A stretch of 38,560 nt of DNA from an uncultured Lysobacterales bacterium (lineage in GTDB: Bacteria > Pseudomonadota > Gammaproteobacteria > Xanthomonadales > Ahniellaceae), in the NCBI GenBank assembly GCA_937924195.1, contig CALDVP010000091.1:1-38560 (forward strand). The letters run 5' to 3'. Shown here one piece after another: positions 206 to 15,191 of the stretch (the first letter of the stretch is position 1; every line of letters starts with the position of its first letter). The position numbers and the translations under genes are program-made. The notes beneath the pieces were generated by a model. The model worked only from the letters and a program-made list of their open reading frames with translations, did no database searches and was not told the origin of the DNA.

Positions 206-1630
206 TCAGCGGCTCGCTTCCGGACGGATCGCCACGAAAACGTTCGCGTCACCGCGCCGAACCAGCAGCATGATCGCCTGCCCGGCACGGGCCGCGCCCG
301 CAGCGCGCTCGAACTCGGCGACGGTCCGGACGGACTGGTTGCCGACGCGCAGGATCACGTCGCCTGGCTGGATCCCGGCCCTGCCCGCAGCCTGTCCGGT
401 GACGCGTTCGACCAGGACACCGGCATCCACGCCCAGCTGCTGGCGCTGTTCCGCGGTCAGCGCACGCACGGACAAGCCAAGCGCGGCACCCGTGCCGGAA
501 GCGCCGCCGCGCGACCCGGCAGGGCTGGTCCCGGCCGTCGAGCCGCCTCCAAGTTCGGCCACGATCACGGGCACGTTCAGACTGCGGCCGTCACGGAACA
601 CGCCGAGCGTCGCACGGGTCCCGGGCGCAGTCGCACCGACCATCGGCGGCAGTTCGGACGAATCGCCGATCTCGCGGCCGTTGAACGAGGTGATCACGTC
701 GCCGACACGGATTCCGGCCTTCTCGGCGGCACTCCCGGGCTGGATCTCGGCCACGAGCGCACCCGCCGGACGCGGCAGCCCGAGCGCCTCGGCACGGTCT
801 CGGTCGATATTCTGGATCTGCACGCCGATCACGCCGCGACTGACACGACCCTTGGTGCGGAGCTGCTCGACGACGCTCTTCGCGGTGTCGATCGGAATCG
901 AGAACGAGAGGCCGATCGAGCCGCCCGAGGTCGAAAAGATCTGCGAGTTGATCCCGACGACCTCGCCTGCGAGATTGAACAGCGGGCCGCCGGAATTGCC
1001 GCGGTTGATCGCGACGTCGGTCTGGATGAAGGGCACATAGCGCTGATCGTTGCCGAGCGTGCGACCCACCGAGCTCACGATGCCCGCGGTCACGGTCTCC
1101 TCGAGCCCGAAGGGCGAGCCGATCGCGACCACCCACTGGCCGGGCTTGAGCTTGTCGGATTCCCCGAGCGTCGCGGCCGGCAATCCGGTGGCGTCGACCT
1201 TGAGCAGGGCGATGTCGGTATCGCGATCCGAGCCGACCACGGTGGCGACCAGTTCACGACGATCGCGGAGGCGGACGGTGACCTCGTCCGCGCCGTCGAT
1301 CACGTGGTGGTTGGTCAGGATGTAGCCATCGCTCGAGATCACGAAGCCCGAGCCGCCGGAGATTCGCTCGGGCTGCGGTCCGCGTGGCATCCCGGGCATG
1401 CCGGGCATCGGCCCGAAGAAACGCCGGAACAGTTCCGGGATCTCCTCGGGGCTCATCTGCGAGGGATCGTTGGCATCGGCTCGCGTCTTGCGCGCGGTGA
1501 TGTTGACCACGGTCGGCGCATTGCGCTCGACGATGGCAACGAAGTCTGGCAACTGGGCCGGCGCGGCCGGCGCGACCAGCGCCAGCGCGACGGCCATCAG
1601 CACGATCGTGAACGGGGACTTGCTCGTCAT
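206..1630 (-). CDS. degP: DegP/HtrA (MucD)-family periplasmic serine endoprotease with two PDZ domains
   Basis: Signal peptide MTSKSPFTIVLMAVALALVAPAAPA; trypsin-like motifs LTNHHVIDGADE, DTDIALLKV and GNSGGPLF; two C-terminal PDZ domains. Start set at internal Met of the 488-aa ORF. Confidence 0.95.
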   Translation of the reverse strand: MTSKSPFTIVLMAVALALVAPAAPAQLPDFVAIVERNAPTVVNITARKTRADANDPSQMSPEEIPELFRRFFGPMPGMPGMPRGPQPERISGGSGFVISSDGYILTNHHVIDGADEVTVRLRDRRELVATVVGSDRDTDIALLKVDATGLPAATLGESDKLKPGQWVVAIGSPFGLEETVTAGIVSSVGRTLGNDQRYVPFIQTDVAINRGNSGGPLFNLAGEVVGINSQIFSTSGGSIGLSFSIPIDTAKSVVEQLRTKGRVSRGVIGVQIQNIDRDRAEALGLPRPAGALVAEIQPGSAAEKAGIRVGDVITSFNGREIGDSSELPPMVGATAPGTRATLGVFRDGRSLNVPVIVAELGGGSTAGTSPAGSRGGASGTGAALGLSVRALTAEQRQQLGVDAGVLVERVTGQAAGRAGIQPGDVILRVGNQSVRTVAEFERAAGAARAGQAIMLLVRRGDANVFVAIRPEASR

Positions 1631-1951
1631 GGGGTCATCCTTTGGTCGGATCACACTGCAATGGGGCGTCAAGCGGATCGATCAAGGCCCCGAACTGCTG
1701 GGTACCAACGATCGATTCGTGGGTTGATCGGGTGAAGCACGCCGGGATCGCGCGGAGGACTGCGGGTCCGGCATGGGCCCGGACTCGCGCTTTGGATCGC
1801 GCTCGCCGGGGCGACCGCGCGGCGGACCGGCCATCCATGCCCGGATGAGTGCGCCAAACGCGTGGAATACGCCTCGGCGCGCAAGACGGGCGCCCAGTCT
1901 TCACCGGCGGGGCAATCCTCGTCCGTCGAACCACGCATCCACGCCAGCATC

Positions 1952-2827
1952 TCAGTCGGCACGTCGCACCGAACGCGCGATACGTTCGAGGGCGCCCGGC
2001 GGCAGTTCGCCGACCACAACGACGTGGAAACCATCGCCGCTGGCGCCGTAGGCACGCATCAGCGCACGCTGGGCATGGCCGAGAAGCCGCGCCGGACCGG
2101 GCTCGATGTAGACCGAGACGCTGGCAAGGCCATCGGAGAACACGAGGTGTCGACCGGCACCCTCGTGTTCTCTCGCCGCCACCAGCCGGAAGCCCGCAGG
2201 CATTCCGGGGACGGACCACCCGATGAGTTTTGGCTCTGCCGCCGTCGGCGGCGCCGTCGCCCGGGCGGGGCCGGCCGCGAACTCGACCTGGGTGAACATC
2301 GACTGTTCGAGCAATTGACCGGCTGCAGTCAGCACCGCGGAGCCCAGCAGCAATCCGCTCTCGCGCTCCAGCCAGAGGCGATACCCGTAGCGCGCATCGT
2401 CGCGTGGGATGGCGTCGACCACCACGGCCGGGCGCCCTGCGACGCGAGCCTCGCCGGTCAGCGTCAGTCGATAGCTGGCCTCGAGATCGGCGACGGGCCC
2501 GGCGACCAGTGTCGTCCACGGCTCGTCGAGCGCGTCCTCGATTCGGAGTACGCCGGCCGCCGCGACACTCGCCAGCCGACCGCCGGCCCGGACGACTTCC
2601 CGCGGCTCGCCGGTCAGCGTGCGCAGCACGTCCTCGGGCATGCCATCGACGAAGCGACGCTCGACCTCGAGCGCCTGAAGCTGTCCACCGCGCACGTAGA
2701 CGACGACTCCGCGATAGGCGAGTCCGTGCATGGCGCCGTTCATCCGCTGGATCCAGTTCGCAGCGGCCTCGTCGGCCGACGCGACCACCGACCATGCCAG
2801 CGCGGTGAAGAGAAGCGCGGCGCGCAT
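1952..2827 (-). CDS. rseB: RseB/MucB sigma-E regulatory protein
   Basis: 291 aa with signal peptide; WIQRMNGAMHGLAYRGVVVYVRGGQLQALEVER is typical of MucB/RseB; lies between rseA and degP. Confidence 0.92.
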   Translation of the reverse strand: MRAALLFTALAWSVVASADEAAANWIQRMNGAMHGLAYRGVVVYVRGGQLQALEVERRFVDGMPEDVLRTLTGEPREVVRAGGRLASVAAAGVLRIEDALDEPWTTLVAGPVADLEASYRLTLTGEARVAGRPAVVVDAIPRDDARYGYRLWLERESGLLLGSAVLTAAGQLLEQSMFTQVEFAAGPARATAPPTAAEPKLIGWSVPGMPAGFRLVAAREHEGAGRHLVFSDGLASVSVYIEPGPARLLGHAQRALMRAYGASGDGFHVVVVGELPPGALERIARSVRRAD

Positions 2828-2836
2828 CGATCGGAC

Positions 2837-3484
2837 TCAGCGGCTGCCCGACTGGGCCCCGGTGGCCGGACGCGCAGCCGGCCACGCCACCATGTTCACG
2901 TACGGGACGAATCCGGCGCGCGCCGAGGCGGAGCCTCCCGCCGCGTGGCGCAGGAAATACGCTTCGACGGCCGGATCCAGCAATTCGACCGGCGCCGCGC
3001 CAGCGCTCGGCGCGAGTGGCATCGCCCAGGTCTCGCTGACCTGTCGCAGCGGCAGCACCGGTGCCAGGTCCTCGGTGCGCAGCGCGGCCTGCGAGGCCAG
3101 CACCGGAACCGCCGGGGACTGCGTTCCGGCGAGCGGCGTCGAACCGGTCTGCGCGTCGCGTCCTGGTCCCGTGACCATCAACGCCAGCGCGGCGACGCCG
3201 GCTGCGATCGCGCCACCGGCCAGTGGCCGCAGCAGGCGGGTGCGTGCCCGCGGCGGCGCCTCCGCGCCTACGCGCTCGGCGACACGGGTCGCGAAGTCCT
3301 CGCCGACCGGCACCACCCGCTCGCCACGCAGGCAGGATCCGACGAGCGCGTAGCGCGACACGGTGGCCCGCAGCGCGGCATCGGACTCGAGCCGACGCGC
3401 GAGGAAGCGCGCCTCATCGCGTCCGAGCTCGCCGTCGACCCAGGCGGACAACGATTCGCGGTTCTGGTCCTGCATGGTCTTCAT
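2837..3484 (-). CDS. rseA: Anti-sigma-E factor RseA/MucA
   Basis: RESLSAWVDGELGRDEARFLARRLESD is an RseA N-terminal motif; single TM segment (PLAGGAIAAGVAALALMVTG); directly downstream of rpoE. Confidence 0.92.
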   Translation of the reverse strand: MKTMQDQNRESLSAWVDGELGRDEARFLARRLESDAALRATVSRYALVGSCLRGERVVPVGEDFATRVAERVGAEAPPRARTRLLRPLAGGAIAAGVAALALMVTGPGRDAQTGSTPLAGTQSPAVPVLASQAALRTEDLAPVLPLRQVSETWAMPLAPSAGAAPVELLDPAVEAYFLRHAAGGSASARAGFVPYVNMVAWPAARPATGAQSGSR

Positions 3485-3537
3485 TCCTCGTCCTGCGTGA
3501 TCTGTGCCGACTCGGCCCGAATGGGCTCCATCCGGCG

Positions 3538-4134
3538 CTACGTGCCACCGTCCCCGCGCTCGTCGAGCAACGGCTTGATCCGCTGGTCGATCGCATCACG
3601 GGCGCGGAAGATCCTTGAACGCACCGTGCCGATCGGCGAGTTCATCGCCTCGGCGATTTCCTCGTAGCTGAGTCCCTCGACCTCGCGCAGCGTGATCGCG
3701 ACACGCAGGTCCTCGGGCAGGTCGGCCACCGCGGCGGTCACGGCCGACTCGATTTCCTGGCGCAGCAGTTCGCGCTCCGGCGTCGCCGAGTCGCGCATCC
3801 GCAGCGCGGATTCGAAGTGCTCGGCATCGTCGAGCGCGACGTCGTCGGATGGCGGCCGTCGGCCGAGCGACACCAAGTGGTTCTTTGCCGCGTTGATCGC
3901 AATCCGGTGCACCCACGTGTAGAACGCACTGTCGCCACGAAAGTTCCCGATCGCCCGCCACGCCCGGACGAAGACTTCCTGCGCAACGTCCTGGCATTCG
4001 GCCCAGTCGGAGATGTAACGGGACACGACGCCGACGACGCGATGCTGGTAGCGGCGCACGAGCAGATCGAAGGCACGGCGATCGCCGGCCTGCACGCGCT
4101 TGACGAGTTCGATGTCTGGGTCGGTCTCGGCCAT
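3538..4134 (-). CDS. rpoE: RNA polymerase sigma factor RpoE (AlgU-type ECF)
   Basis: DIELVKRVQAGDRRAFDLLVRRYQHRV...DVAQEVFVRAWRAI (sigma2) and LPEDLRVAITLREVEGLSYEEIAEAMNSPIGTVRSRIFRAR (sigma4). Start set at internal MAETDPDIEL. Confidence 0.95.
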   Translation of the reverse strand: MAETDPDIELVKRVQAGDRRAFDLLVRRYQHRVVGVVSRYISDWAECQDVAQEVFVRAWRAIGNFRGDSAFYTWVHRIAINAAKNHLVSLGRRPPSDDVALDDAEHFESALRMRDSATPERELLRQEIESAVTAAVADLPEDLRVAITLREVEGLSYEEIAEAMNSPIGTVRSRIFRARDAIDQRIKPLLDERGDGGT

Positions 4135-4372: not shown

Positions 4373-6556
4373 TCAGCGTCGCTCGGCCAACAGGCGTTCG
4401 CGCTCGACGAGCAATTCCTCGAGCGCGGCGACCGGCAACGGTCGGCAGAACAGGAAGCCTTGCAGTTCGTCGCAGCCCTGCTCGCGCAGGAAAGCCGCAT
4501 GCTGTTCGTACTCGACGCCCTCGGCGACTACGTGACGGCCCAGTGAGTGCGCCATGCCGATCGTTGCGCGCACGATCGTCTCGTCGTCGGGGTCGACCCC
4601 GATGTTGCGCACGAACATCTGGTCGATCTTGACGCGGTCGGCGGGAAACCGTCGGATGTAGTCGAGCGAGGCCTGTCCCGTGCCGAAGTCGTCGATCGCG
4701 ATCTGGCAGCCGAGCGAGCGCAGCGCCCTGAGCGACTCGATCAGGTGCGGGATGCGTTTCACGCTGACGCTCTCGGTCACCTCCAGCTCGAGTGTGTCGG
4801 GCGGCAGGCCGGTCTCGGCGAGCACCGCGGTTACGTCGGCGACGAGTTCGTGCCGGCCCAACTGCACGGCCGAGAGGTTGACCGCGACCCGCAGCGGCAG
4901 GCCGAAGCGTTGCTGCCAGGCGCGCGCCTGACGACAGGCCTCGAACAGCACCCAGCGACCGATCGGCACGATCAGCCCGGTTTCCTCGGCCAGCGGGATG
5001 AAGAAGCCCGGCGACACCATGCCCATTTCAGGGTGTTCCCAGCGCACCAGCGCCTCGATGCCGATGATGTCTTCGTCGCGGGCGGAAACCTGTGGCTGGA
5101 AGTGCAGTCTCAGTTCACCGTGGGCCTCGGCCACTCGCAGGCGGGCCTCGAGCGTGGCGCGCTCGCGACGCGATTCGCGCAGGTCGGCGACGAACACGTG
5201 CGTCTGGTCAATGCCGAGACCCTTGCCGGTACGCAACGCGATATCGGCTTGACGCACGAGATCCTCGGCCGACCCGGCATCGTCCGGGAAATGGCAGACG
5301 CCGACGCTGGCCGTCACACGCACCTCCTCGCGCTCTTCGAGGGCGATCGGCTCCGCGAGCGCGGTCCGAAGCTTCGCGGCAACGGTCTCGGCGTCGCCGC
5401 GGACCCGCAGCTCACGCAGGCAGACCGCGAACTCGTCGCCAGCGTAGCGCGCGACGAGATCGGTGCCCCGCACGGTCTGGCGCACGCGGCGGGCGCTCTC
5501 GACCAGGATTCGGTCGGCGAGGTCATGACCGAAGACTTCGTTGACGTTCTTGAAGCGGTCGAGGTTGACCAGCAGCACGGCACAGCGCTCGCCGCTGGTG
5601 CGGGCGCTACGCACCACCTCATGCAACCGCTGGTTGAACTGGGCCCGGTTCGCGAGTCGCGTCAGCGCGTCCCGCTCCTCCATCCGGCGACTCTGCTCGC
5701 GCAACCGCACGAGGCGGAACTCGATGGCGAGCCGCGCCGCGGCGATCCGCAGCAAGTTCCCGACCAGGCTCCCGTCGCGCCATTCCTGCAGGGTCCAGGC
5801 AACGATCGATCCGCGCGCCGAACCGTCCTCGTCGAGTATCGGAACGGCAAGGATTCCCGCGGCCCGGGTCGCGTGCAGCAACTTGGCGACGCCGGCCGCG
5901 TCGGCATCGCGGGTGACCGAGACCATCGCCACACCCCGGCATGCGGCTCGGATCGCGCCCCAGTCGGGCCGACCATCGCCAATGCGCGCGAGTTCGACGA
6001 CGTCGAACGGCTCGGCGTCATCGCCACGCCAACGCGCGACCGCGAAGAAGCTGCCCGGGAACCACTCGGCCAGGCGATCGACGACGGCTGCTGCCGGATT
6101 CTCGGCGGGCGCGAGCAAGGCCGCCGCGCGGCCAAGCAACGCGCTCGGCGCATCCGCGTCGCCGCGATCCGCCCGGGCCCGAGCGAAGGCCACTGCGGCC
6201 CGCCACCCGAGTTCGTGCGGGTCGATCGGCCGGCGGATGGCCTCGATCCCCGCGACCCCCAGTGCCGCGAGACCGGCCCACGCCGACTCGGCGCAGGCGA
6301 GCAAAAGCCCGATCGGATGTTCGCTCAGCGAAATCAATGTGCGCGCGTCGACCAGCGACGTCTTGGCCGAACTCGCGTCGAGCAAGATCAGAGCCGGCCG
6401 ACCCGCCTCCAGCGCTCCCTCGAGCGCCGCCTCGGCATTGGCTGCCTTCACGAACTCAAGGCCGATGCGCCGCGCCCAGTCGGCCACGCGCACGTCGTCC
6501 CCGCGATCGCCGAGCGCGCACAAGACCACGAGTCCTTCGGGCAATGCGCCGCTCAT
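4373..6556 (-). CDS. Bifunctional c-di-GMP signalling protein: receiver-like N-terminus, GAF-like domain, GGDEF (AGDEF) and EAL domains
   Basis: GGDEF domain with RYAGDEFAV and upstream RGTD (I-site-like); EAL domain with IEALVRWEHP, VNLSAVQL, EVTES, DDFGTGQASL, VKIDQMF, VAEGVE. Start ATG at 6556 overlaps the upstream gene stop. Confidence 0.93.
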   Translation of the reverse strand: MSGALPEGLVVLCALGDRGDDVRVADWARRIGLEFVKAANAEAALEGALEAGRPALILLDASSAKTSLVDARTLISLSEHPIGLLLACAESAWAGLAALGVAGIEAIRRPIDPHELGWRAAVAFARARADRGDADAPSALLGRAAALLAPAENPAAAVVDRLAEWFPGSFFAVARWRGDDAEPFDVVELARIGDGRPDWGAIRAACRGVAMVSVTRDADAAGVAKLLHATRAAGILAVPILDEDGSARGSIVAWTLQEWRDGSLVGNLLRIAAARLAIEFRLVRLREQSRRMEERDALTRLANRAQFNQRLHEVVRSARTSGERCAVLLVNLDRFKNVNEVFGHDLADRILVESARRVRQTVRGTDLVARYAGDEFAVCLRELRVRGDAETVAAKLRTALAEPIALEEREEVRVTASVGVCHFPDDAGSAEDLVRQADIALRTGKGLGIDQTHVFVADLRESRRERATLEARLRVAEAHGELRLHFQPQVSARDEDIIGIEALVRWEHPEMGMVSPGFFIPLAEETGLIVPIGRWVLFEACRQARAWQQRFGLPLRVAVNLSAVQLGRHELVADVTAVLAETGLPPDTLELEVTESVSVKRIPHLIESLRALRSLGCQIAIDDFGTGQASLDYIRRFPADRVKIDQMFVRNIGVDPDDETIVRATIGMAHSLGRHVVAEGVEYEQHAAFLREQGCDELQGFLFCRPLPVAALEELLVERERLLAERR

Positions 6557-7071
6557 TCGACCCAGCGTCCATTGCGCAGCCGCAGTGGGGAGCGGCCCGG
6601 CTGATCGAAGATCCGCGTCGCGACCCGTTCGAGCGCGGAATCGAGGCCGATGTAGCGGTCCATCAGCACGATCCGCTTCGGCGCCGCGTCCGGACACCCG
6701 TCGGCGAGCATCTCGCGCAGTCGCATCAGCGCGGCCGAGCCCGGCACCAGTCCCAACGTCGAGACCGGATGGAACAGGTAGATCCCGAAATGCCCGCTGG
6801 CGTGAATGTGGCGGAGCGCGTCGAAGCCGCTACCGGTCCCTGGGACGTGGACACCCGGCTCGCGCAGGCTGCCGATACCGACGCCGGGCACGAAGTGATA
6901 GATCGCCTGGCCCTCGCGCAGCGCGGCCTGCCGGAACTGATCGAGCAACGCCTCGGGGCGCGGCGTCTCGATCGCCACGAGCAGGCCCGGGCTCTCGATG
7001 ACGCGCGCCGTGAGACCCGCGAAAACCGGTCGGCCGGCGAGCGGACTGGACGGGTTGGCGTCGCTGGGCAT
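6553..7071 (-). CDS. Uncharacterised 172-aa protein, possibly a stand-alone Ycf46-type AAA-ATPase N-terminal domain
   Basis: 4-bp overlap (ATGA) with the downstream GGDEF/EAL gene. Pattern SPGLLVAIETPRPEALLDQFRQAA...AIYHFVPGVGI...DALRHIHASGHFGIYLFHPV...KRIVLMDRYIGLDSALERVATRIF follows the order of the N-terminal region of Ycf46-like ATPases; no Walker A seen. Confidence 0.75.
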   Translation of the reverse strand: MPSDANPSSPLAGRPVFAGLTARVIESPGLLVAIETPRPEALLDQFRQAALREGQAIYHFVPGVGIGSLREPGVHVPGTGSGFDALRHIHASGHFGIYLFHPVSTLGLVPGSAALMRLREMLADGCPDAAPKRIVLMDRYIGLDSALERVATRIFDQPGRSPLRLRNGRWVE

Positions 7072-7239: not shown

Positions 7240-9276
7240 ATGTTCCAGGGCCTGAAGCCGCGCCACTGGCGCACGTCGACCGAACCGGACGGGATCATCG
7301 TCCTTACCCTCGACCGCGCCGGCGAGTCGGCCAACAGCCTTGGCCGCGAAGTGCTCGATGAGCTCGGACTGCTGGTCGAGCGGATTGCGATCGAAACCCC
7401 GAAGGGCCTGGTGATCGTCTCGGGCAAGCCCGGGAGCTTCGTGGTCGGGGCCGACCTCCGTGAGTTCGAAGGCTATGCGAAGAGCGGGCAGGTCGCCGCC
7501 GCGATCGACCGCGGCCACCGCGTGTTCACTCGCCTCGCCGGGCTGCGCTGCCCGACGGTCTGCGCGATCCACGGTGTCTCGATGGGTGGCGGCACCGAGC
7601 TGGCGCTGGCCTGCCGCTACCGAGTCGCCAGCGACGACCCGAAGACCCGAATCGGCCTGCCCGAGGTCCTGATCGGCATCCACCCGGGCTGGGGCGGGCT
7701 CGCGCGGCTGCCGCACCTGGTCGGCGCGCCGAAGGCCTTCGAGATGATGCTGACCGGCCGTGCGCTCAACGCCAAGGCGGCCCGCGCGATCGGCCTCGTC
7801 GACGCCGTCGTGCCCGAGGCCGAGCTGCTGGCGCACGCCAAGCAGCTGATCGCGCGCCCGCCGGCTCGACCGCTCGGCCAGCACCTGATCGCCTGGGTCA
7901 CGAACTGGTGGCCGGTGCGCCAGGTGCTGGCGTCGATGATCCGCAAGCAGACGGCGGCCAGGGCCGACCCGAGGCACTACCCGGCCCCATTCGCGATGAT
8001 CGAGGTCTGGCGCCGCCACGGCGGCAGCGTGCCGGCCGCGCTCGAGGCCGAGGCTCGCTCGGTCGCGAAGCTCGCCGAGACTCCGACCGCACGCAACCTC
8101 GTTCGCGTGTTCTTCCTGCAGGACGCGTTGAAATCCTCTGGCAACAAGGACGGCCACGCGATCCGCAAGGTCCACGTCGTCGGCGCCGGGGTGATGGGCG
8201 GCGACATTGCCGCGTGGTGCGCGCTGCAGGGCTTCGAGGTGACGCTGCAGGACCGTGAACTCAAATACATCGAACCGGCGCTGACGCGGGCCGACGCGCT
8301 CTACGCGAAAAAGCTGAAGACCCCCGAGCGGATCACGCCGGCGCGGGCTCGCCTCAAGGCCGACGTCGAGGGGGCCGGCGTCGCCGACGCCGACCTCGTG
8401 ATCGAGGCGATCTTCGAGAATATCGAGGCCAAGCAGGCGCTCTACGCGGCGCTCGAGCCGCGGATGAAGCCGGGCGCGATCCTGGCCACTAACACCTCGT
8501 CGATCCCGCTCGCGACGCTGCGCGAGAAGCTGGCGCGACCGGAGTCCTTCGTCGGCATCCACTACTTCAACCCGGTCGCGCTGATGCCGCTGGTCGAGAT
8601 CGTCAGGCACGACGCAGTCTCGCGCGAGACCCTCGAACGCACGCAGGGCTTCGTCCGCGGCATCGACAAGCTGCCGATCGTGGTCGCTGGCACGCCCGGA
8701 TTCCTGGTCAATCGGATTCTGATGCCCTACCTGCTGGAAGCGATCCGCGCCCACGCCGAAGGCATCCCCGGCCCGGTGATCGACCGCGCCGCGAAGTCGT
8801 TCGGAATGCCGATGGGGCCGATCGAACTGGTCGACACGGTCGGCCTCGACGTCGCCGCCTCGGTCGGGAAGATCCTCGCGCCCTTCCTCGGCCTCGAACT
8901 GCCGGCCGGCATCGAGGCCAGGCTCGAATCGGGCAAGCGCGGCAAGAAGGACGGCGAGGGCCTGTATCGCTGGGTCGATGGCAAGCCGGTCAAGCCCGAA
9001 GTCCCGAAGGGCTACCGGGCGCCCGAGGATCTCGCCGACCGGCTAGTACTACCGATGGTCAACGAGGCCGTCGCGTGCCTCGCCGATGGCGTGGCCGAGT
9101 CCGCCGACCTGATCGACGCCGGCGTGATCTTCGGCACGGGCTTTGCGCCCTTCCGCGGTGGCCCGCTCCACTACGTCCGCGAAACCGGCCCAGAAGCAGT
9201 GCAGGCGCGTATGCGCAAGCTCGCCGAGGTCCACGGATTTCGTTTTCAGCCCAAGCAGGGATGGGATCGCCTATGA
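7240..9276 (+). CDS. fadJ: FadJ/FadB-type multifunctional enoyl-CoA hydratase / 3-hydroxyacyl-CoA dehydrogenase
   Basis: Crotonase motifs HGVSMGGGTELALACRYRVAS and GLPEVLIGIHPGWGGLARLP; NAD-binding HVVGAGVMGGDIAAWCALQGFEVTLQD; FVGIHYFNPVALMPLVEIV. Start set at MFQGLKPRHWR inside the 1111-aa ORF. Confidence 0.93.
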   Translation: MFQGLKPRHWRTSTEPDGIIVLTLDRAGESANSLGREVLDELGLLVERIAIETPKGLVIVSGKPGSFVVGADLREFEGYAKSGQVAAAIDRGHRVFTRLAGLRCPTVCAIHGVSMGGGTELALACRYRVASDDPKTRIGLPEVLIGIHPGWGGLARLPHLVGAPKAFEMMLTGRALNAKAARAIGLVDAVVPEAELLAHAKQLIARPPARPLGQHLIAWVTNWWPVRQVLASMIRKQTAARADPRHYPAPFAMIEVWRRHGGSVPAALEAEARSVAKLAETPTARNLVRVFFLQDALKSSGNKDGHAIRKVHVVGAGVMGGDIAAWCALQGFEVTLQDRELKYIEPALTRADALYAKKLKTPERITPARARLKADVEGAGVADADLVIEAIFENIEAKQALYAALEPRMKPGAILATNTSSIPLATLREKLARPESFVGIHYFNPVALMPLVEIVRHDAVSRETLERTQGFVRGIDKLPIVVAGTPGFLVNRILMPYLLEAIRAHAEGIPGPVIDRAAKSFGMPMGPIELVDTVGLDVAASVGKILAPFLGLELPAGIEARLESGKRGKKDGEGLYRWVDGKPVKPEVPKGYRAPEDLADRLVLPMVNEAVACLADGVAESADLIDAGVIFGTGFAPFRGGPLHYVRETGPEAVQARMRKLAEVHGFRFQPKQGWDRL

Positions 9277-11513
9277 AGCCTTGGCCTCGTTCGCAGCGGA
9301 TCGTGATGCGAGCACTGGCGATCGGTTGGGCGGCAGTAGCGCCGATGCTCGTGGTTGCCGCCGAGCGCGAACTCGTCCGCCTGCCAGCCGAGGCGGCACG
9401 CGCACTGCCGAACGGCACCCGGGTGATCGACCAGCACGGGGAGATCGCGTTCGTCGAGGCGCCGCCGGGCGCGGCCACGCGCATCGACGGTGCGGTCGTG
9501 GTCGCGGGCGGTTACCGCCTCGACCTGCCAGGCCTGCCGGCGGCCGATCCGCTCGAGTGGGCATCCGGCCCGGACCTCGCGCGCGCTGATCCCGATCAGC
9601 CCGAAATCGGCCTCGTGCAGTTCCGCAGCCCGCCGCGGGCCGAGTGGCTCGACGCGCTCGAAGCCCGCGGCATCGTGGTCGCGCAGCACATCCACCCATT
9701 CACCTATGTGGTCTGGGCGACGCCGGCCGCACTGACCGCCGCGCGCTCGCAGGTCGAGGGCGTGCGCTGGACAGGCCTCCATCCGATCGAGGCCAGGGTG
9801 CAGGCGCCCGGGGCCCGCGCAGCCGGGGTCGATCCGTATCGGCTGCTCGTGCTCCGTGCCGCCGCGGTGCCGATCGACGCGATCGCCGCGACCGGCGCGC
9901 GGGTCCTCGGGCGTTCGGCCACGGACCGGACCTTCGAGGAGATCCTGATCGAAGCACGCGGCGAGCAGCTTGCGGCGCTCGCGGCCGTTCCAGGGGTGCT
10001 CAGCGTGCAAGACCTGCCGACCGATGGCGGCACGCGCGGCGAACTCAGCAGCCAGCAGTTCGCAGGCAACGTCGACGCGTCGAACCAGCCGCTCGCGAAC
10101 TACCCGAACTGGGTGGCCCAGTTCGGCCTGACCGGCGCCGGCGTGCTGATGGCCAACGTCGACAGCGGCGTCGACGAGAATCACCCGGACCTGCGCCAGC
10201 GGATGCGGCCGTGCGCCGGAGTCAGCTGCGGGGGCACGAGCTCCTCGCACGGCACCCACACCGCGGCAATCATGGCCGGCGATGGCAGCAGCGGTGTGCG
10301 CGACTCCCGCGGCTTTCTGCGCGGTCTCGGCGTCGCGTTCGGCGCCAACCTGATCGAGCAATCCTACAGTCCGACCTACACCCAGGCGGGCGGCATGCTG
10401 ACGCTGATGCGGACCTCGGCCACCAATGGCGCGGCGCTGTCCGGGAACAGCTGGGGTCCTTCGGCGACACCGCGCGGCTACGACGCCAACACCCGCCAGG
10501 TCGACGTCGGCGTCCGCGACACCGATCCCGACACGCCCGGCGACCAGCCGCTGCTGTACGTGCTATCGATCATGAACGGCTATGGCGATACCAGCACCCA
10601 GGGCACGCCCGACGAGGCCAAGAACACGCTGACCGTCGGCTCGACCCATTCGCAGGCCGCGAGCACCGGCGCCCCACTCGCCAGTTGGCAGAGCATCTCG
10701 TCGAACAGCGGCCACGGTCCGGCACTCGACGGCCGCCTGATCCCGCACCTCGTCGCGCCGGGCTGCCGCGTCGACTCGGCCTCGACCAGCAACGGCTACG
10801 CGCTGCTGTGCGGCACCAGCATGGCCTCCCCGCACGTCTCGGGCGCCGCCGCGCTGCTGGTCGAGGCCCTGCGCCAGCGCGAGGCGCGCACGCCCAGCCC
10901 GGCGCTGGTCAAGGCCCACTTCGTCGCCAGCACCGTCGACCTCTTCGGCGGCACCGACGCGAATGGCAATCCTCTCACCCGGCGCCCCAACCCGAGGCAG
11001 GGCTGGGGTGCATTGCGGCTGGGCATGGCGCTCGGCGCGATCGACCGCTCGTGGCGCCACGACCAGGCGCACGTCTTTACTGCGACCGGGCAGTCGTGGA
11101 CCGTCGAGCTCGAGCCGCGCGACCCCACCCAGCCGGTGCGCGTCGTGCTGACCTGGACCGACGCCCCGGGCCACGGCACCTGCGCCAGCAGCACTTGCAC
11201 CACCCCGGCCTGGAACAATGACCTCGACCTCGAGGTGCAGCGCGGCGCGACGCTGTGGCGGGGCAACATGTTCGGGAGCGACGGCTGGTCGACGACCGGT
11301 GGCGGGCCCGACCAGCGCAACAACCTCGAAGGTGTGATGCTGCCAGGCGGCAGCCTGGCTGGACCCTTCACGGTGCGTGTCCGGGCCGCCAACATCAACT
11401 CGGACGCACTGCCGAACTCCCCGGGCACGCTGCAGCAGGACTTCGCGCTGGTCTGCGTCAACTGCCAGGTCTTCGATCCGGACCTCGTGTTCCGGAACTC
11501 CTTCGAGCCCTGA
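9273..11513 (+). CDS. Secreted S8 subtilase (KP-43-like), with C-terminal '...FRNSFEP' tail
   Basis: Signal peptide; catalytic motifs ANVDSGVDENHPDL, SSHGTHTAAIMAG, LCGTSMASPHVSGAAALL and oxyanion SGNSWG; C-terminal beta-domain WNNDLDLEV...QRNNLEGVMLPGG. ATG overlaps the fadJ stop. Confidence 0.93.
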   Translation: MKPWPRSQRIVMRALAIGWAAVAPMLVVAAERELVRLPAEAARALPNGTRVIDQHGEIAFVEAPPGAATRIDGAVVVAGGYRLDLPGLPAADPLEWASGPDLARADPDQPEIGLVQFRSPPRAEWLDALEARGIVVAQHIHPFTYVVWATPAALTAARSQVEGVRWTGLHPIEARVQAPGARAAGVDPYRLLVLRAAAVPIDAIAATGARVLGRSATDRTFEEILIEARGEQLAALAAVPGVLSVQDLPTDGGTRGELSSQQFAGNVDASNQPLANYPNWVAQFGLTGAGVLMANVDSGVDENHPDLRQRMRPCAGVSCGGTSSSHGTHTAAIMAGDGSSGVRDSRGFLRGLGVAFGANLIEQSYSPTYTQAGGMLTLMRTSATNGAALSGNSWGPSATPRGYDANTRQVDVGVRDTDPDTPGDQPLLYVLSIMNGYGDTSTQGTPDEAKNTLTVGSTHSQAASTGAPLASWQSISSNSGHGPALDGRLIPHLVAPGCRVDSASTSNGYALLCGTSMASPHVSGAAALLVEALRQREARTPSPALVKAHFVASTVDLFGGTDANGNPLTRRPNPRQGWGALRLGMALGAIDRSWRHDQAHVFTATGQSWTVELEPRDPTQPVRVVLTWTDAPGHGTCASSTCTTPAWNNDLDLEVQRGATLWRGNMFGSDGWSTTGGGPDQRNNLEGVMLPGGSLAGPFTVRVRAANINSDALPNSPGTLQQDFALVCVNCQVFDPDLVFRNSFEP

Positions 11514-14024: not shown

Positions 14025-15098
14025 TTACTGGCGCACGAGTTCCGTGCGACGGTTGCGCTGACGACCCTCACGGGTGTCGTTCGTGTCGATCGGACGGAGT
14101 TCACCATAACCGACCGGACCCGACAGGCGATCCGACGAGATGCCACGGCTGATGAGATAGTCGTAGACCACGCGGGCGCGGCGCTCCGACAGCCTCTGGT
14201 TGTAATCCTCCGAGCCGATCGAGTCGGTGTGGCCACCCACCTCGACACGGACGTTCGGATAGCGGTTCAGCACTTCGACCGCCTGGTCCAGGATCTCCAT
14301 CGAGCCCGGCAGCAGACCGGCCCGGTTGATGTCGCGTTCCTGACCCGGGCGCGGACGATCGAACTCGAACATCACACCCTGCAGGTCGATGACGATCTCC
14401 TGCGGCGGAGCCGGCGGCGGCTCGACCGGAGCCGGTGGCGGCGCGACCGGCGCCGGGGCCGGCGGCGGCGGCGGCGCTGGCGGCTCACCGATCGCCATCG
14501 TCAGACCGAGGGTGAACAGCCAATCGCCGAACTTCTCGGCCCGATAGTCGGGGCTGCCGGCGCCCTGCGCCGGATCACGCAGCGGGGTGCTGCCTCCCAG
14601 CGACTCGCTGTCCCAGTCATAGCGATAGGCGAGTTCGGCGCGCAGACGTACGTTGTCCGTGAAGGCGTTCTGCAAACCAACACCCGCCTGGATACCCGCG
14701 TCCCAGCCATTGTCGACGCCACCGCGGTGGTTGATCGCACCAAGGCCGGCCATCACGTACGGCGCGAACCCTGAGGTGTCACCGAAGTAAAAGCGGAGCG
14801 AGGCCCCGATCATCGCGCTGTCCATCGCATCGTCCGTGCCGCGCACGCGCGTGCCGAGGTTCGTGGCCGAGCGGTTCGTGCGGTCCCAGAAGACGTCGAT
14901 CGAGGTGTTGGGGCTGATGAAGCGGCCGATGCCGACACCGATGAGAAACGAGTTCGAGTCCGCGAGGCGGTCCGAATCGTTGTTCATGCTGCCGATGTAC
15001 GGCGCCACGTACCAGCGGTCGTCGTAGGTTTGCGCCTGCGCGGAGGCGACACCCCCGAGCGTCAGCGCGATCACAGCGCAAAGCGTCTTGCGGTTCAT
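14025..15098 (-). CDS. ompA: OmpA-family outer membrane protein with beta-barrel, proline-rich linker and peptidoglycan-binding domain
   Basis: Signal peptide MNRKTLCAVIALTLGGVASAQA; N-terminal barrel; PPPPPAPAPVAPPPAPVEPPPAPP linker; OmpA_C VRVEVGGHTDSIGSEDYNQRLSERRARVVYDYL. Confidence 0.92.
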   Translation of the reverse strand: MNRKTLCAVIALTLGGVASAQAQTYDDRWYVAPYIGSMNNDSDRLADSNSFLIGVGIGRFISPNTSIDVFWDRTNRSATNLGTRVRGTDDAMDSAMIGASLRFYFGDTSGFAPYVMAGLGAINHRGGVDNGWDAGIQAGVGLQNAFTDNVRLRAELAYRYDWDSESLGGSTPLRDPAQGAGSPDYRAEKFGDWLFTLGLTMAIGEPPAPPPPPAPAPVAPPPAPVEPPPAPPQEIVIDLQGVMFEFDRPRPGQERDINRAGLLPGSMEILDQAVEVLNRYPNVRVEVGGHTDSIGSEDYNQRLSERRARVVYDYLISRGISSDRLSGPVGYGELRPIDTNDTREGRQRNRRTELVRQ

Positions 15099-15160
15099 CC
15101 GAATTCTCCTTGTGGACGGCAATAGCACGCGGACCCAGTCCCGGGCCTCGCGACGGCTGG

Positions 15161-15191
15161 AGTCTAGCACCGACCGCCCGCCAATTAACAA
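15161..15191 (-). promoter_or_regulatory. Candidate ompA promoter
   Basis: Minus strand -10-like TAGACT (15161-15166) and upstream TTGTTA (15186-15191, 19-bp spacer) or TTAATT (15183-15188, 16-bp spacer). Confidence 0.35.

Follow-up and report, generated by a model that had tools for sequence, protein, structure and literature searches.

A stand-alone, Walker-less homologue of the Ycf46 N-terminal domain encoded with a GGDEF/EAL enzyme in Lysobacterales: a probable partner in c-di-GMP turnover

A soluble protein of 172 aa, encoded directly ahead of a GGDEF/EAL gene in an uncultured Lysobacterales bacterium, is almost certainly homologous to the first N-terminal domain of Ycf46-type AAA proteins and is probably a dedicated partner of the co-encoded c-di-GMP enzyme. 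The stretch of DNA that was analysed, hereafter the window, comprises 38,560 nucleotides (GenBank assembly GCA_937924195.1, contig CALDVP010000091.1), and its relevant features are collected in Table 1. How Ycf46, a protein conserved among cyanobacteria and plastids, works is poorly known; the protein described here corresponds to the Ycf46 N-terminal half as one small, soluble domain and has an evident candidate partner, which opens the Ycf46-type N-domain to biochemical tests. Moreover, c-di-GMP signalling gains an unnamed family that accompanies one GGDEF-EAL enzyme in all 92 genomes that have this enzyme and, elsewhere, occurs beside a second GGDEF enzyme.

Table 1. Features of the window around the small gene and its partner enzyme.
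Feature	Position	Strand	Basis
rpoE-rseA-rseB-degP-like cluster, downstream	206..4131	-	Pfam Sigma70_r2/r4, RseA_N, MucB_RseB, Trypsin_2+PDZ; rpoE start inferred
GGDEF/EAL enzyme, 727 aa: receiver-like (uncertain)-GAF-GGDEF-EAL	4373..6556	-	Pfam, co-inheritance
EAL domain; EALVR, NLS, EVTES, DDFGTG, K, EGVE and Q motifs intact	4439..5143	-	Pfam 9e-73
GGDEF domain	5222..5674	-	Pfam 2.7e-37
GGDEF signature, reading AGDEF	5429-5443	-	sequence
RGTD, inhibitory-site-like motif of the enzyme	5459-5470	-	sequence
GAF domain, about residues 136-288 of the enzyme	5693..6151	-	predicted structure, Foldseek; no Pfam match
Stand-alone Ycf46-N-like (Walker-less, AAA+-like) protein, 172 aa	6553..7071	-	ORF and translation, homology, AlphaFold
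ATGA stop/start overlap of the small gene and the GGDEF/EAL gene	6553..6556	-	sequence
C-terminal motif RLRNGRWV, predicted beta-hairpin	6559..6582	-	alignment and AlphaFold
Divergent FadJ-type enoyl-CoA hydratase/3-hydroxyacyl-CoA dehydrogenase	7240..9276	+	Pfam

The initial annotation of this DNA, which gave no strand, had described the small ORF by four quoted segments, and these are all present in the minus-strand frame at 6553-7071. The ATGA junction that it reported is likewise found in the sequence, since the TGA of the small ORF occupies 6553-6555 and the ATG of the GGDEF/EAL gene 6554-6556. The GC content by codon position (73/51/87%), the dN/dS of 0.20 against the nearest relative, the family median dN/dS of about 0.11 (41 closer pairs) and the existence of homologues together identify a real protein-coding gene rather than a chance frame in GC-rich DNA. 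Homologues were found in 33 of 61 related genomes in the first genome search and in 210 genomes of a 300-genome sample from the order, the latter count including full-length Ycf46-like matches. The Walker A P-loop of the AAA+ ATPase superfamily is missing: the window protein has no such motif (G/A-x4-G-K-S/T), as the initial annotation had noted, and neither has any other member of the family alignments, which comprise 25 and 42 rows. By a crude motif count, the Walker-B Asp is present in 9 of 9 counted Ycf46-like N-domains, in 14 of 37 Lysobacterales stand-alone rows and in 8 of 19 other stand-alone rows. In the 42-row alignment R164, L165, R166, G168, R169 and W170 are invariant, and R70, R87, R164, R166 and R169 are invariant or nearly so. 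The C-terminal motif to which most of these positions belong reads RLRNGRWV in the window protein, as opposed to RLRDGRWV in most relatives, is specific to the Lysobacterales family, and contains strands predicted by AlphaFold at residues 164-166 and 169-171.

The connection with Ycf46 emerged in the 61 related genomes, in which one weak search match turned out to fall at the beginning of a Walker A-containing AAA protein of 494 aa; this protein served as the query for collecting a set of such AAA proteins from other genomes. We take them to be Ycf46-like from their layout, from family knowledge and from the ycf46-annotated phage matches described below, and not from a reference Ycf46 sequence. 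When 25 stand-alone proteins were aligned by hhalign to the N-terminal region of the Ycf46-like set, the match had a probability of 98.6% and E=5e-16 over 131 colinear columns, and a repeat with 7 Ycf46-like rows gave E=1.2e-16, whereas decoys, made by shuffling or reversing the columns or taken from unrelated families of the same loci, remained at E>=0.027. Conversely, the small family showed no similarity to the AAA domain of the Ycf46-like proteins in the same kind of comparison (E=0.41). In genome searches the family HMM also recovers full-length Ycf46-like frames of about 490-600 aa, with E-values of 1e-8 to 1e-17. Pfam, NCBIfam and PHROGs hold no family model for the window protein, and a PDB sequence search with it returned nothing significant; scattered matches of single members fell in unrelated families and were treated as chance.

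The small protein and the Ycf46-like AAA proteins (COG0464 type, including plastid and cyanobacterial Ycf46) thus have in common a colinear N-terminal alpha/beta domain without Walker A. On the Ycf46 side the alignment ends near column 140 of 230, and the helical region that follows (about residues 140-228), between the N-domain and the AAA domain, has no counterpart in the small protein. Accordingly, the original suggestion that the protein follows the N-terminal half of Ycf46 holds for the first ~135 residues but not for the helical second part of that half, while its remark that the ATPase half is missing stands, the ORF stopping right after the N-domain. Because this catalytic half, the C-terminal AAA ATPase with Walker A and B motifs, is absent, the small protein does not belong to the Ycf46 ATPases. 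Conversely, the Lysobacterales protein has, beyond the aligned part, a C-terminal RLRDGRW hairpin, which distinguishes it from the Ycf46-like proteins.

The predicted structure is in agreement with this relationship. With 42 homologues, AlphaFold2 yields a model of the small protein with a mean pLDDT of 86.8 and a pTM of 0.79, in which an alpha/beta domain (residues 16-155) is followed by the short RLRxGRW hairpin. Foldseek matches in the PDB are almost all AAA+ large subdomains and are weak (best E 8e-3, TM ~0.5), and a search of predicted viral proteins gave three ycf46-annotated entries as its top matches (best E 3e-4), in an output that leaves the aligned domain of these proteins unspecified. 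As judged from the predicted fold and these weak PDB scores, the small protein may have the ASCE-type alpha/beta core of AAA+ proteins, without a Walker A motif. Its model resembles the large (alpha/beta/alpha) subdomains of, for example, Rubisco activase (6z1f) and a DNA polymerase III gamma-related protein (2gno), but it differs from them in lacking the small helical subdomain as well as Walker A. The prediction did not point to a different known fold, the outcome that the initial annotation had named as grounds for abandoning the Ycf46 assignment.

That the stand-alone family is an old lineage of its own is indicated by a tree of 63 sequences, in which the Ycf46 N-domains group together (100/100) to the exclusion of all stand-alone proteins, the most divergent rows not being reliably placed. 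Recent truncation of a local Ycf46 gene, considered as a source of the small gene, was rejected on the basis of this clade. Fusions of the domain to GGDEF were also sought among a few long frames: no true one was found, the inspected cases being read-through from upstream in a different frame.

The association with the GGDEF/EAL gene is nearly without exception in the order. Among 80 named loci, all from Lysobacterales or from MAGs titled only Proteobacteria, the GGDEF/EAL gene is directly downstream on the same strand in 75 of the 75 with enough sequence, and the overlap or gap between the two genes is at most 26 nt in 76 loci by automatic start choice; the pair is equally present in 28 of 28 checked loci with room, which span seven families of the order. 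In a sample of 300 genomes, in which orthologues of the enzyme were called at a cut-off of 1e-125 (all have E<=1e-152, with nothing between), the enzyme occurs in 92 genomes. In every one of these the small gene precedes the enzyme gene in the same orientation, and the two matches are no more than 1.1 kb apart. Only three genomes from enzyme-carrying families have the small gene without the enzyme, and their contigs end there; more divergent pairs in families f6 and f8 fall below the enzyme threshold and have the same arrangement. Homologues never standing beside GGDEF/EAL genes, the second outcome that the initial annotation had named as a refutation, was thus not what the survey found. Gene order and co-inheritance show a functional linkage of the small gene and the enzyme, not binding, and families with such a degree of linkage are usually functional partners.

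The enzyme itself is predicted to act in c-di-GMP turnover, as both the GGDEF and the EAL domain are recognised by Pfam and the EAL motifs are complete. Its GGDEF signature is AGDEF, embedded in RYAGDEF in 76 of 76 orthologues and preceded in the window's copy by an RxxD motif; in other bacteria, some variants with AGDEF are active. Of the receiver-GAF-GGDEF-EAL layout proposed at first reading, the last two domains are certain, the GAF domain is placed by predicted structure, and the receiver is left with a low-confidence model and no Pfam match. Most orthologues of the enzyme have an additional PAS-like domain, assigned to PAS where Pfam detects it, that separates the receiver-like region from the GAF region; this domain appears to be missing from the window's enzyme and from 6 of the 76 orthologues, all of which are shorter.

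Stand-alone homologues are also found in other gammaproteobacterial families, in a second context. In 12 of 20 such loci the small gene is directly preceded, in the same orientation, by a GGEEF gene (product about 305-350 aa), and the remaining 8 homologues have no GGDEF neighbour; the more distant flanks of stand-alone homologues contain no GGDEF frame in 104 kb. Since many of the GGEEF loci share gene order, they represent largely one inherited association and not 12 independent ones. The N-terminal part of the GGEEF protein has no detectable relation to the GAF region of the window's enzyme, so that what the two partner enzymes share is the GGDEF domain; a common sensor domain, considered as an alternative, was not detected by this comparison. 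Genomes judged to be Pseudomonas-like by their size and gene content keep the GGEEF orthologue and have no small gene at the locus, which indicates that this cyclase can do without it; at these loci (L234-L238) the GGEEF gene adjoins an rluB-type pseudouridine synthase frame. By its size and its GGEEF signature the GGEEF partner presumably resembles the PA3177-type cyclases. The PA3177-type cyclase of Pseudomonas has a mass of 34.4 kDa and a GGEEF signature (PMC5702645). The window's partner, in contrast to these cyclases, is a different, GGDEF-EAL enzyme.

Other neighbours were observed at single loci of this second context. A gene for an MshEN-T2SSE protein (a type II/IV secretion ATPase with a c-di-GMP-binding-type domain; L223, 7381-9165, plus strand) is divergent to the stand-alone homologue in one locus without a GGEEF gene and in a close relative of the same family, and a REC-DUF3369-HD response regulator (L225, 7358-8917, minus strand) is convergent to the homologue in another such locus, beside a CheW gene. 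From family knowledge, we take both neighbours to be c-di-GMP related.

We propose the following course of events. A soluble, stand-alone, Walker-less protein would be translated together with the GGDEF/EAL enzyme encoded directly after it and would most likely bind this enzyme; once bound, it may act as a non-catalytic partner that sets the activity or the location of the enzyme, and c-di-GMP turnover would be tuned by the small protein through its enzyme. As a whole, this mechanism of a co-translated Ycf46-N-like partner that binds and tunes the GGDEF/EAL enzyme has, in our judgement, slightly better than even chances of being right; binding, modulation and the direction of the effect are its inferred parts. 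In the literature searched, no link of Ycf46 or of its N-domain to c-di-GMP was found, an absence that counts as weak evidence.

Three other explanations bear on the same observations. The small protein could be a c-di-GMP receptor that binds the product or the substrate of the enzyme and acts downstream, leaving the enzyme itself unregulated. The conserved arginines R70, R87, R164, R166 and R169 and the Arg-rich RLRDGRW hairpin would suit such a role, as would the association with cyclase-type and GGDEF-EAL-type genes and, in one family, with the MshEN-T2SSE gene; AAA+-type c-di-GMP receptors, such as FleQ, do exist. However, Pfam and NCBIfam find no PilZ, MshEN or other known receptor domain in the window protein, and the hairpin is missing in the GGEEF-linked homologues, whose matches stop before it, so that we regard a receptor as unlikely. 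A simple co-regulated neighbour in a sigma-E stress operon, with a role unrelated to c-di-GMP, is an unlikelier account still: a sigma-E gene does follow in the window and in 66 of 66 named loci with room, but the GGDEF/EAL pair persists in several families (f4, f6, part of f11, f10) that have no sigma-E cluster or a divergent one, and a second GGDEF-linked context occurs elsewhere. The pair being constant and the sigma-E cluster variable, the enzyme is the core neighbour of the small gene.

The clear homology to the Ycf46-type N-domain could also mean that the small protein works with a full-length Ycf46 AAA ring, as subunit or adaptor, and that the c-di-GMP enzyme is the client or input. Many genomes with the small gene have a second match to the family model, and several of these matches are Ycf46-type frames; yet several complete small-gene genomes (e.g., G020, G044 and G050) have one match only, and among the best candidates scored in the window's genome (87% complete) none is a full-length Ycf46-like protein at E<=1e-60, which makes this the least probable of the alternatives, with a low chance of being correct. 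Compared with these accounts, a dedicated partner of the GGDEF/EAL enzyme is the reading that we prefer.

On a broader scale, it may tentatively be considered, at rather less than even chances, that a widespread and uncatalogued pseudo-AAA family, sister to the Ycf46 N-domain, constitutes a dedicated gammaproteobacterial c-di-GMP module that accompanies at least two different GGDEF enzymes and possibly senses c-di-GMP or GTP in a degenerate nucleotide site. By extension, if this were true, the Ycf46 N-domain itself may sense a nucleotide or a second messenger.

Lastly, on the other side of the small gene, 70 of 71 named loci have the divergent FadJ gene. Further along the window, an S8 subtilisin-family protease (9269-11513, plus strand) ends in DPDLVFRNSFEP, possibly a sorting-type C-terminal motif, and an ORF at 14025-15191 (minus strand) has an outer-membrane-protein-like N-terminus and, by eye, an apparent OmpA-type C-terminal domain.
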